NCBI RefSeq assembly: GCF_009905725.1
Contig: NZ_JAAAKV010000002.1
Span: 1 to 64,000 of the forward strand
Source: Emticicia sp. CRIBPO
Lineage (GTDB): Bacteria; Bacteroidota; Bacteroidia; Cytophagales; Spirosomataceae
DNA: 64,000 nucleotides
Direction of reading: 5' to 3'
In this document: positions 11,040-13,908 of the stretch, one piece after another
How the letters are laid out: the number at the start of each line of letters is the position of its first letter
Numbering within the stretch: the stretch's first letter is position 1
Program-made: the position numbers and the translations under genes
Notes under the pieces: generated by a model
Databases searched by the model: none
What the model was told of the DNA's origin: nothing
What the model saw: the letters and a program-made list of their open reading frames with translations, nothing else

Positions 11040-11070
11040 ACACTCCTTTCTCCAGACTAAATTTTTTATT

Positions 11071-11085
11071 TGCAACATTGTTGCA
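11071..11085. promoter_or_regulatory. Operator copy 1, TGCAACATTGTTGCA (putative Zur box)
   Basis: A 7-1-7 palindrome, TGCAACA-T-TGTTGCA, overlapping the -33 element of the zinc operon promoter. The same 15 bases recur at 11109-11123. Fur-family repressors bind palindromes of about this size, and the downstream genes are all zinc-linked, so Zur is the most likely binder. That assignment is inference. Confidence 0.75.
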
Positions 11086-11110
11086 TTAAATTCATTTCTT
11101 ATTATATTTG
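11081..11110 (+). promoter_or_regulatory. Promoter of the zinc operon
   Basis: A Bacteroidota sigma-ABfr-type promoter: TTG at 11081-11083, a 19-base spacer and TATATTTG (TAnnTTTG) at 11103-11110. Transcription should begin about 11115-11117, leaving a leader of about 25 bases before the ATG at 11141. Both conserved boxes are embedded in the two operator copies, so a bound dimer at either would block RNA polymerase. Confidence 0.75.
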
Positions 11111-11123
11111 CAACATTGTTGCA
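11109..11123. promoter_or_regulatory. Operator copy 2, TGCAACATTGTTGCA (putative Zur box)
   Basis: Identical to the copy at 11071-11085, 38 bp centre to centre. It overlaps the end of the -7 box and the expected transcription start, a classic repressor position. Confidence 0.75.
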
Positions 11124-11140
11124 TTAATTAAATTCCAGAA

Positions 11141-12343
11141 ATGAAAAAAACAATCCTTCTTTTTATCAGCACCTTTACCTTATTAGTTACCTCTTGTGAC
11201 AACGAAAAGCATGAAGAAGTAGCACCCGATGATCCTTTGGAATACAAATACATCCGCGTGATGGTCAGTGATGAAATCACCAACGCCGTATCGGTCATCA
11301 ATACCCGGACAGGGGAAACACAGTCTTTCGAGGCCCGTTTTCCGAAATCGGCTACTTACCAGACGGCTTCCGGAAGGTTCGGTGTATTGGTCAATACTGC
11401 CAATAACTATGTCCAGCTGTTTGACTCAGGCTTTGAAGGACACGGCGACCATGTGGATGTTAAAGGCACACCCAAGTGGGCGGCCATTATCGGGGATGGG
11501 AACAAGCCTACCCATTTTAAAAGCAAAGGCAATGAAATCATTCTTTTCAATGACGGAGACGGCACGCTGGACATCGGCAATGAATCAGATTTTCATGTGA
11601 CAGGCAAAAAGCTTAGCAGGATCAATGCGGGCATCGCGGCCCACCATGGTGCCATGGCCAAGTTTGACAACGGCACTTATGCCATTACCGAAAAAGACGG
11701 TTCAGTGGCCGGGACCTTACCTGAACGTGTCAAAATAATTGACGCCAACGGAAAAACAGTGTTTGCCTCCACACTTCAGACCAAAGGCATTCATGGCAAT
11801 GCGACGAATGGAAAAGTGGCCGTTTTCGGTTCTTCAAGCGGTATTCTGGTCATCGAACAAGGAGGCAACCAGAAACTGATCCCTCATCCGAACGACTTCG
11901 GCACCGCCTGGTTTTCTTCTATTCTTGAAGCAAGGGGAGCGGGTAAATTCATAGGTTATACCGCTGCTGCCGGTGCTTACCTCATTGATGCACTGGCCAA
12001 TACGGTAACCCCAATACTGGCTAATACCGACATTATGCAGTGCAAAATTGACTACGCAGGAAACAACCTCGTCGTGCTTTTACACAGCGGTGAGGTCAGC
12101 ATTTACGATTTAGCGACGAATAAACTAAAGAAAAGTGCCGTGATTTTACCGGCTACGCTGAAAACAGAAACCCAGAAACCTCAGCTGGAAGCTACAGCCA
12201 AATACCTGTATGTGACCCAGCCCAAAAGCGGGGAAATACTGCAGATCCCGGTTTCAGACCTCAGTTCCTCTAAAAAAATCAAAGTTTCAGCCACGCCTTA
12301 CCGGCTATCAATCCTGGGTATAGAATCCAGTGAAGACCATTAA
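11141..12343 (+). CDS. AztD-like zinc-binding beta-propeller lipoprotein
   Basis: A 400-residue exported lipoprotein: signal segment 1-18, then lipobox LVTSC with C19. The mature part resembles AztD, the periplasmic zinc metallochaperone that loads the AztC solute-binding protein in alphaproteobacteria. It has beta-propeller-like repeats and histidine clusters at GFEGHGDHVDV, AAHHGAM, GIHGNA and PHPNDFG. It is the first gene after a promoter flanked by two palindromic operators and is followed by two further metal-linked genes. The likely role is binding zinc at the cell envelope under zinc starvation. No aztABC transporter is present in the window, so the acceptor is unknown. The family call is by motif recognition; a general beta-propeller metal-binding protein is the fallback. 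Confidence 0.75.
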   Translation: MKKTILLFISTFTLLVTSCDNEKHEEVAPDDPLEYKYIRVMVSDEITNAVSVINTRTGETQSFEARFPKSATYQTASGRFGVLVNTANNYVQLFDSGFEGHGDHVDVKGTPKWAAIIGDGNKPTHFKSKGNEIILFNDGDGTLDIGNESDFHVTGKKLSRINAGIAAHHGAMAKFDNGTYAITEKDGSVAGTLPERVKIIDANGKTVFASTLQTKGIHGNATNGKVAVFGSSSGILVIEQGGNQKLIPHPNDFGTAWFSSILEARGAGKFIGYTAAAGAYLIDALANTVTPILANTDIMQCKIDYAGNNLVVLLHSGEVSIYDLATNKLKKSAVILPATLKTETQKPQLEATAKYLYVTQPKSGEILQIPVSDLSSSKKIKVSATPYRLSILGIESSEDH

Positions 12344-12346
12344 TGA

Positions 12347-12700
12347 ATGATTATGGAAACCAACACATCCAAATTTGACTGGGCAGGCATTTTAAGTGCA
12401 TCACTTTGTGTGGTGCACTGCCTGCTCACTCCGGTTCTTATTCTTCTTCTGTCTAATAAAGAATGGTGGCACCAGGTATCTTACCTGTTTTTAGCCATCA
12501 GTTTTTATGCGGCTTTCAAGGCCACTCAAAATTGTACGGTCAATAAAATCGTGGTGCTGATATGGCTCAGTTTTCTTATCCTGGCCGTAAGCATTCTTTT
12601 TGAAGACACTTTCACGTGGCTGCATGAACTCAGCTACCTGGCCAGCTTCGGCCTGGTGGCAGGTCATATTCTTAATATCCGTTATTGTAAACATTGCTGA
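12347..12700 (+). CDS. MerC-domain membrane protein
   Basis: A 117-residue inner-membrane protein with about four hydrophobic spans. The first carries the MerC cysteine motif CVVHCLLTP (about residues 21-29), and the protein ends with a second cysteine pair, CKHC. MerC proteins were named for mercury uptake in mer operons, but there is no merR, merA or merP here, and Bacteroidota homologues commonly occur beside zinc genes. Transport or sensing of Zn(II) or another soft metal is therefore more likely. The start is 3 bp after the upstream stop; an ATG two codons further in (12353) is equally possible. Its TGA overlaps the ATG of the next gene, indicating coupled translation. Confidence 0.85.
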   Translation: MIMETNTSKFDWAGILSASLCVVHCLLTPVLILLLSNKEWWHQVSYLFLAISFYAAFKATQNCTVNKIVVLIWLSFLILAVSILFEDTFTWLHELSYLASFGLVAGHILNIRYCKHC

Positions 12701-13908
12701 TGAAAAAATTGCCTGTAACCGTATTGTCCGGATTTTTAGGAGCCGGAAAAACAACTTTGCTCAACCATCTCCTGCACAATAAAGCGGGTCTGAAAGTAGC
12801 CGTCATTGTCAACGACATGAGCGAGGTCAACATTGATGCCCGGCTGGTGGAAAAAGAGAACACACTATCAAGAACAGAAGAAAGACTGGTGGAGATGTCA
12901 AACGGATGTATCTGCTGCACACTCAGGGAAGACCTCATGATTGAAGTGGAGAAGCTGGCCCGTGAAAATCGTTTTGATTATCTGCTGATTGAATCCACGG
13001 GTATTTCCGAACCGGTGCCGGTGGCACAGACCTTCAGTTTTACGGACGAAGCCAATGGCATAGATTTATCAAAATGGTCCTACATAGACAGCATGGTAAC
13101 GGTGGTGGATGCTTTTAATTTCAGTAAGGACTTCGGCTCTTCCGACACGATCCACTCAAGGGCATTGAATGAGGATGACAGCGATCAAAGACCGATCGTT
13201 AATCTTCTGACCGACCAGATTGAATTTGCAGACATCATCCTGATCAACAAAGCGGATCTTGTGAGTCATGAGCAGCTTCATGAACTCAGGACATTAATAA
13301 GTAAACTGAATCCACACGCTAAAATTATCCTTTCCACTTTCGGCAGGGTTGAGCCGTCTGCGATCTTAGGCACCGGGCTTTTTGATTTTGAAACGGCCCA
13401 GGCCTCCGCAGGCTGGATCCAAGAAATACAGAATCACGAAAATGGGAAAACACACCAACCGGAAACAGAGGAATATGGTATTTCATCCTTTGTGTTCAGG
13501 GATAAACGGCCTTTTCACCCTGAAAGATTCTGGGATTACATTTCGGAAGACTGGCATGCGGGCATTATCCGCTCCAAGGGGCTTTTCTGGCTAGCTTCCC
13601 GGCCTTATGAAGCCCTCAACTGGTCACAGTCAGGCGGCTCGCTCAGGGCTGAAAGTGCCGGAAAATGGTGGGTAAGTAAGCCTTTCAACGAAAGAATCAG
13701 GTATGCTTCGTTTGTTGAAAATCAGGCAGCCATCGAATCACGCTGGGATAAGCGTTTCGGTGACAGGCAAAATGAACTGGTGATCATCGGCCAGGACCTT
13801 AACTATAGACTGGTTACGGAAGAACTCCGGCAATGCCTGTGTACTGAAAAAGAGATCAGTGAAATGGAATCGGGAAAGCGTTTTAAAGACCCTTTCCCGG
13901 TTGTCTGA
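12700..13908 (+). CDS. COG0523/CobW-family GTPase, putative zinc chaperone (ZigA-like)
   Basis: A 402-residue cytoplasmic GTPase. It has Walker A GFLGAGKTT at residues 11-19, the metal-binding CxCC motif at C70-I-C72-C73, a NKAD base-recognition motif near 187, and a CobW C-terminal domain (about 255-390). COG0523 proteins bind zinc through CxCC and use GTP hydrolysis to deliver it to client enzymes; the Zur-controlled members (ZigA, ZNG1-related) act when zinc is scarce. The ATG at 12700 overlaps the merC TGA (ATGA). A longer TTG start at 12694 is possible but less likely. The operon context argues for zinc rather than cobalamin metabolism. Confidence 0.9.
   Translation: MKKLPVTVLSGFLGAGKTTLLNHLLHNKAGLKVAVIVNDMSEVNIDARLVEKENTLSRTEERLVEMSNGCICCTLREDLMIEVEKLARENRFDYLLIESTGISEPVPVAQTFSFTDEANGIDLSKWSYIDSMVTVVDAFNFSKDFGSSDTIHSRALNEDDSDQRPIVNLLTDQIEFADIILINKADLVSHEQLHELRTLISKLNPHAKIILSTFGRVEPSAILGTGLFDFETAQASAGWIQEIQNHENGKTHQPETEEYGISSFVFRDKRPFHPERFWDYISEDWHAGIIRSKGLFWLASRPYEALNWSQSGGSLRAESAGKWWVSKPFNERIRYASFVENQAAIESRWDKRFGDRQNELVIIGQDLNYRLVTEELRQCLCTEKEISEMESGKRFKDPFPVV

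Follow-up and report, generated by a model that had tools for sequence, protein, structure and literature searches.

The window analysed here is a stretch of 64,000 nucleotides from Emticicia sp. CRIBPO (contig NZ_JAAAKV010000002.1), and at positions 11071 to 13908 it carries three genes for an AztD-like lipoprotein, a MerC-family membrane protein and a ZigA-like COG0523 GTPase, which we regard with high confidence as a zinc-starvation operon. The best guess for its function, to which we assign a probability of about 0.6 for the chain as a whole, runs from control by the zinc regulator Zur to delivery of the metal inside the cell. At plentiful zinc, Zur would hold two palindromes ahead of the operon and cover the -33 and -7 elements of the promoter, at short supply the operon would open. 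The lipoprotein would be exported, anchored by its lipid and loaded with zinc at two sites, acting in capture or hand-over alongside a co-regulated TonB receptor and further lipoproteins. MerC may carry the zinc across the inner membrane and so stand in for the ATP-binding cassette (ABC) transporters AztABC and ZnuABC, both absent, and the GTPase may hand the scarce metal to client proteins.

The tight row of three genes reported in a preliminary description of this DNA is borne out by the coordinates of the open reading frames (ORFs, Table 1). The AztD-like and the MerC gene are separated by 3 bp, and the MerC and GTPase genes meet in TGATG with an overlap of 1 nt, not in the ATGA overlap given before. 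An alternative start of the MerC frame is possible at a second ATG (12353); for the GTPase the ATG at 12700 was taken as start, while the ORF tool places it at a TTG at 12694. The spacing suggests co-transcription of the trio from one promoter, and the genes on both flanks have the opposite orientation. The twin palindromes described earlier are two exact copies of TTGCAACATTGTTGCA at 11070 and 11108. The TTG of a promoter of Bacteroidota type lies inside box 1, and its second element, TATATTTG, ends in box 2; TTG/TAnnTTTG is what we take to be the -33/-7 consensus of the phylum. A scan detected no sigma-70-type promoter at the boxes, in line with expectation for Bacteroidota. Bound to both boxes, a repressor would stand in the way of RNA polymerase. 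The arrangement recurs among the AztD-like loci with at least two boxes, 37 in number with that of the window counted: the TAnnTTTG element runs into the downstream box at 36 of them, the TTG falls inside the upstream one at 36, 35 show both features, and 33 have a spacer of 18-21 nt. As part of each promoter motif also belongs to the box, the overlap is informative chiefly for the TA and the spacing. With up to three mismatches, the palindrome has five matches in the window, compared with a mean of 1.1 in shuffles, of which 1 in 100 reached five. A search of the 6.06-Mb genome with up to two mismatches returned 11 forward and 10 reverse matches, the reversed pattern none on either strand; these matches resolve into nine palindromic sites at seven loci and three weak one-strand matches with two mismatches.

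Comparison of the sites points to the palindrome being very probably a Zur operator. The zinc-type control proposed for the operon before is supported insofar as the shared operator precedes gene families of zinc type. Another regulator of the Fur family, responding to iron, manganese or peroxide, could own the palindrome, and the operon would then not primarily serve zinc. The genome has four Fur-family genes, and the E. coli Zur model matches one paralogue, Fur_L040, weakly (27 bits against 167). However, the targets comprise AztD-like, COG0523 and ZIP proteins, a His-rich lipoprotein and a TonB receptor with a weak ZnuD match below the cut-off (115 bits versus 950). Relatives were surveyed in an order sample of 194 genomes and a family sample of 61 genomes (Spirosomataceae, in which NCBI also places Dyadobacter). 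Fur proteins encoded beside MerC at 12 family loci match the gene at C36:24126 with 186-205 bits and Fur_L040 with 97-112 bits, and they belong to one orthologous group in a weakly supported tree. Fur_L040 (C36:105631) was therefore rejected as Zur, and the Fur-family protein G000:C36:24126-24422 is the most likely Zur of this genome. Among ZIP genes, the box stands ahead of 4 of the 23 examined, one of which adjoins a Zur-like gene. In G197, which alone among the sampled family genomes has ZIP but no MerC, the ZIP gene (L284:2472-3268) lies about 35 bp behind an exact box; the other nine ZIP genes fetched from the family, all from MerC-bearing genomes, have none, and three of 13 further high-scoring ZIP genes of the order are linked to the box (two directly, one behind ZigA). 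ZnuA-type systems were rejected as Zur targets in the order, as the box was found at none of 20 loci (L313-L332) picked from the 106 order genomes with a match. A separate MntR-like gene is present at eight of these loci and an MntR-like gene or domain at 11; the three separate MntR-like genes that were typed score under the curated MntR score. The MntR-like domains form part of proteins some 430 aa long, which resemble fused permeases. Owing to the MntR-like genes and the missing box, the ZnuA-type ABC systems of the order look like manganese or iron importers. A box at some ZIP genes and at none of the ZnuA loci examined, together with MerC-adjacent Fur proteins that match C36:24126 best, argues for Zur and for zinc, and makes control by another Fur-family regulator improbable. 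TonB-dependent uptake of the ZnuD type and under Zur control in Caulobacter shares with this system the Zur-type box before TonB receptors and the weak ZnuD match; here, in contrast, the receptors lie elsewhere in the genome, while some Flavobacterium have everything in one cluster.

The lipoprotein is, with hardly any doubt, an AztD homologue. In a phmmer search, AztD proteins of solved structure matched it at 2.1e-20 and 7.1e-17, with an identity of about 20-23 %. The AlphaFold2 model reached a predicted local distance difference test (pLDDT) of 88.4 and a predicted template modelling score (pTM) of 0.86. In the structure comparison that the preliminary description had suggested, Foldseek placed nine AztD chains on top (E 1.1e-24 to 2.2e-22, template modelling score by target 0.82-0.85), followed by the next match at E 2.6e-12. 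Neupane et al. 2019 (PMC6689063) name the zinc ligands of both AztD sites, and all seven positions are kept in the lipoprotein: H125, H169 and H218 for site 1; H101, H104, D106 and H400 for site 2. The six internal ligands are present in all 31 rows of alignment A2 and in all 18 rows of alignment A1, except for position 106, which in A1 is Asp in 13 and His in five rows. For the C-terminal His only A1 and the window protein were considered, as the rows of A2 end one residue early; 15 of the 18 A1 rows have a His among the last four residues. The sequence and the model suggest that the protein works like AztD, as a distant homologue outside the curated family. Nearly all rows have acidic residues after the lipid-bearing cysteine. 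Such residues fit export to the cell surface, where the lipoprotein may be located. With AztABCD of Paracoccus denitrificans the system shares the eight-bladed AztD fold, both zinc sites including the C-terminal His, Zur-type control and a COG0523 gene nearby. In the parts of PMC6689063 that we consulted, CobW genes are described as frequent near aztD and a ZnuA-type gene as a neighbour of roughly half of 577 AztD sequences; the string 'Bacteroid' is absent from its main text. The system differs from AztABCD in that AztABC is missing, MerC takes the place where the ABC genes would be, and the AztD-like protein is a lipoprotein in a Gram-negative bacterium, without the cysteines of the site-stabilising disulfide.

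MerC is the best candidate for the inner-membrane zinc importer, a role for which we see an even chance. It passes the Pfam gathering score of 27.6 for PF03203 (1.4e-15, 58.2 bits), and 67 MerC sequences agree without exception in G14, C21, H24, C25 and P29; the earlier family calls for MerC and for the GTPase, with its cobW and CobW_C domains, hold. In the predicted structure there are four helices, the first of which holds the CxxHC motif. The link to the operator was examined for 66 family MerC genes, that is, all places over the cut-off less the one in the window, with two below the cut-off excluded. Sixty-two of them are tied to the box when starts are re-anchored and operons walked, 53 directly and nine through the first gene of the operon. 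With strict ORF starts, the box was found at 49 of the 66, the reversed pattern at none; shuffles gave 0 of 1320. Other ORFs of the MerC loci have the box in 5 of 114 cases, all of them regulon members or divergent neighbours sharing promoters. The missing ABC partner noted for the operon, in which no ABC transporter is encoded, extends to the whole family sample: the ABC-3 permease (PF00950) occurs in 0 of 61 genomes, that of Emticicia sp. CRIBPO included, while the control gave 13 of 14 well-known genomes. ZnuA (PF01297) had no match in this genome (97.8 % complete) and none in the 17 family genomes of the order sample. MerC is present in 51 of the 61 genomes and ZIP in 11; 41 of the 50 genomes without ZIP have MerC. 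A family sample without ABC-3 permease, with scarce ZIP and with a common, mostly box-tied MerC is the new point of this analysis. For Spirosomataceae, and probably many other Cytophagales, there is about an even prospect that a Zur-controlled MerC takes the leading part in zinc import over the inner membrane instead of ZnuABC and ZIP, and that TonB receptor, lipoproteins and AztD-like protein outside and ZigA inside complete an ABC-free zinc route. In the preliminary description MerC moved or sensed zinc; moving has gained comparative support, for sensing no support was found.

As the name MerC derives from mercury resistance, the operon could be read as a defense against toxic metals such as mercury or cadmium rather than as zinc import. 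Yet no mer-type genes were detected among the window ORFs, the operator regulon consists of acquisition-type genes, and among 72,556 plasmid records only one distant match of MerC was obtained and no close relative, so that we consider a defense function very improbable. The protein shares with MerC of mer operons the PF03203 domain, the build of a small four-helix membrane protein and the cysteine pair in helix 1; it differs in its chromosomal location, the Zur-type box ahead, the invariant histidine in CxxHC and the lack of mer neighbours. Titles among the references of PMC3847078 describe MerC as a bacterial transporter of the heavy metals cadmium and mercury, and these titles make transport of zinc chemically plausible.

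Several observations weigh against the proposed chain. Neither MerC nor ZIP is present in nine of the 61 family genomes, of which six reach a completeness of at least 98 %, hence another importer must exist in those nine. The screen for importers covered ABC-3, ZnuA, ZIP and MerC. A role of MerC as strict replacement of ZIP found no support, as MerC is also present in 10 of the 11 family genomes with ZIP. The MerC model has a middling pLDDT of 75.6 and found no match among solved structures at E<=0.001. Four of the 66 family MerC genes have no box, among them a second MerC gene of this genome (G000:C37:151847-152164), which adjoins an MreB-like gene. The candidate Zur gene at C36:24126 has no box of its own. 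The AztD profile of NCBIfam scores the lipoprotein with 92.4 bits (E 2.3e-26), below the curated cut-off of 400, and at the positions aligned to the AztD disulfide (Cys214-Cys231 in P. denitrificans) the lipoprotein has no Cys. The trio as a conserved unit had to be rejected, since MerC and ZigA both lie within about 6 kb of the AztD-like gene at only 6 of 80 named loci. Some of these points would fit a true Zur operon in which MerC has an accessory role (as a sensor, a metal buffer or a docking protein) and a carrier such as one of NRAMP, Pit or CorA type brings in the zinc: the nine genomes without MerC and ZIP, a screen confined to the four families named above, and a small MerC whose model is unmatched among solved folds. 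On the other hand, no multi-helix membrane protein other than MerC was found directly behind a box in this genome, 62 of the 66 family MerC genes are box-tied, and MerC kin are called mercury and cadmium transporters in the cited titles. An accessory MerC is the less likely choice beside MerC as the importer.

For the third gene product, Pfam reported cobW (5e-58) and CobW_C (2e-24), and the ZigA profile of NCBIfam covers residues 4-400 of 402 with 547.7 bits. The protein carries CICC, which fits the CxCC motif; this motif presumably has here the meaning known from COG0523 proteins. ZigA and the Zur-linked COG0523 GTPases share with it both domains, CICC and a zinc-type operator ahead, but the score lies under the curated 600, and the operon partners are an AztD-like protein and MerC.

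In the order sample, AztD-like genes were found in 19 genomes (own included), MerC in 103 and ZigA-like genes in 70 at E<=1e-80. The search for co-occurrence of the three families, proposed earlier, gave a mixed result: the exact trio is rare, and the regulon with its operator and the pairs MerC-ZigA and AztD-like-MerC recur. The gene order of the window was seen elsewhere only in Arundinibacter roseus (L097). In relatives, homologues of each of the three genes are found behind the box, in many cases with a Zur-like Fur gene next to them; the box is present at all 18 AztD-like loci fetched from the order, that with a broken gene (L077) among them, at 19 of 30 MerC loci and at 25 of 30 ZigA loci. 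For 79 of the named AztD-like loci the sequence ahead of the gene was long enough, and 38 of these carry a box no more than 250 bp upstream. The loci without it belong largely to Flavobacterium and its kin, where a TonB receptor or small lipoprotein gene frequently lies ahead of the AztD-like gene; in three Flavobacterium loci (L126, L128, L157) Zur-like Fur, MerC, ZigA, small lipoprotein, AztD-like protein and TonB receptor are encoded in one cluster. In Dyadobacter the AztD-like gene stands alone behind two boxes at most loci, and at 28 of the 80 named loci none of the six partner types sought is present. Two loci have damaged genes, an AztD-like gene broken by two internal TGA (L077) and a ZigA-like gene split in three (L151).

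A link between MerC and Zur or between AztD and Bacteroidota was met in none of the titles and abstract openings among the matches listed, in a literature search with subscription journals largely outside its coverage; in Haas 2009 (PMC2770081) the matches to 'MerC' were to an author called Merchant. For zinc uptake in bacteria without ZnuABC or ZIP, MerC is now a named candidate, with C21, H24, C25 and P29 as the residue set for its possible role, and the operator defines a zinc regulon in Cytophagales. If the chain is true, AztD would have a role without an ABC partner and MerC one outside mercury resistance, and the MerC of mercury resistance would be a borrowed zinc carrier.

Table 1. Predicted features of the operon region in the window, and loci of the genome with sites of the palindrome
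Feature	Position	Strand	Remarks
Putative operator box 1, TTGCAACATTGTTGCAT	11070-11086	none	overlaps -33 element
Putative operator box 2, TTGCAACATTGTTGCAT	11108-11124	none	overlaps -7 element
Predicted Bacteroidota-type promoter	11081-11110	+	TTG (11081-11083), 19 nt, TATATTTG (11103-11110)
AztD-like beta-propeller lipoprotein, predicted to bind zinc	11141-12343	+	400 aa; lipobox LVTSC
MerC-family (PF03203) four-helix membrane protein, candidate zinc importer	12347-12700	+	117 aa; invariant LCxxHCxxxP
ZigA-like COG0523 GTPase, candidate cytoplasmic zinc chaperone	12700-13908	+	402 aa; CICC motif
Site locus: trio operon			two sites
Site locus: between second COG0523 GTPase (His-rich loop) and divergent TonB receptor			
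Site locus: small lipoprotein gene directly after another TonB receptor	L027:6136-6681 (gene)		two sites
Site locus: gene for small secreted protein			
Site locus: His-rich lipoprotein gene with divergent M14-like peptidase			
Site locus: between thioredoxin-reductase-like gene and divergent adenosylhomocysteinase	G000:C35:58062 (L026:6063)		exact copy
Site locus: ahead of response-regulator gene, then PAS histidine kinase	G000:C34:146260 (L030:6261)		near-exact copy

At two of the seven site loci, those of the thioredoxin-reductase-like and the response-regulator gene, a link to zinc is not plain. The three small exported proteins of the regulon fall into no family of Pfam or NCBIfam. The family of the small lipoprotein recurs near Zur, MerC, AztD-like and TonB receptor genes, and it is perhaps a partner of the TonB receptor. 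Homologues of the other two exported proteins (L028:6129-6587 and L031:5802-6218, one of them His-rich) recur beside ZigA and MerC.

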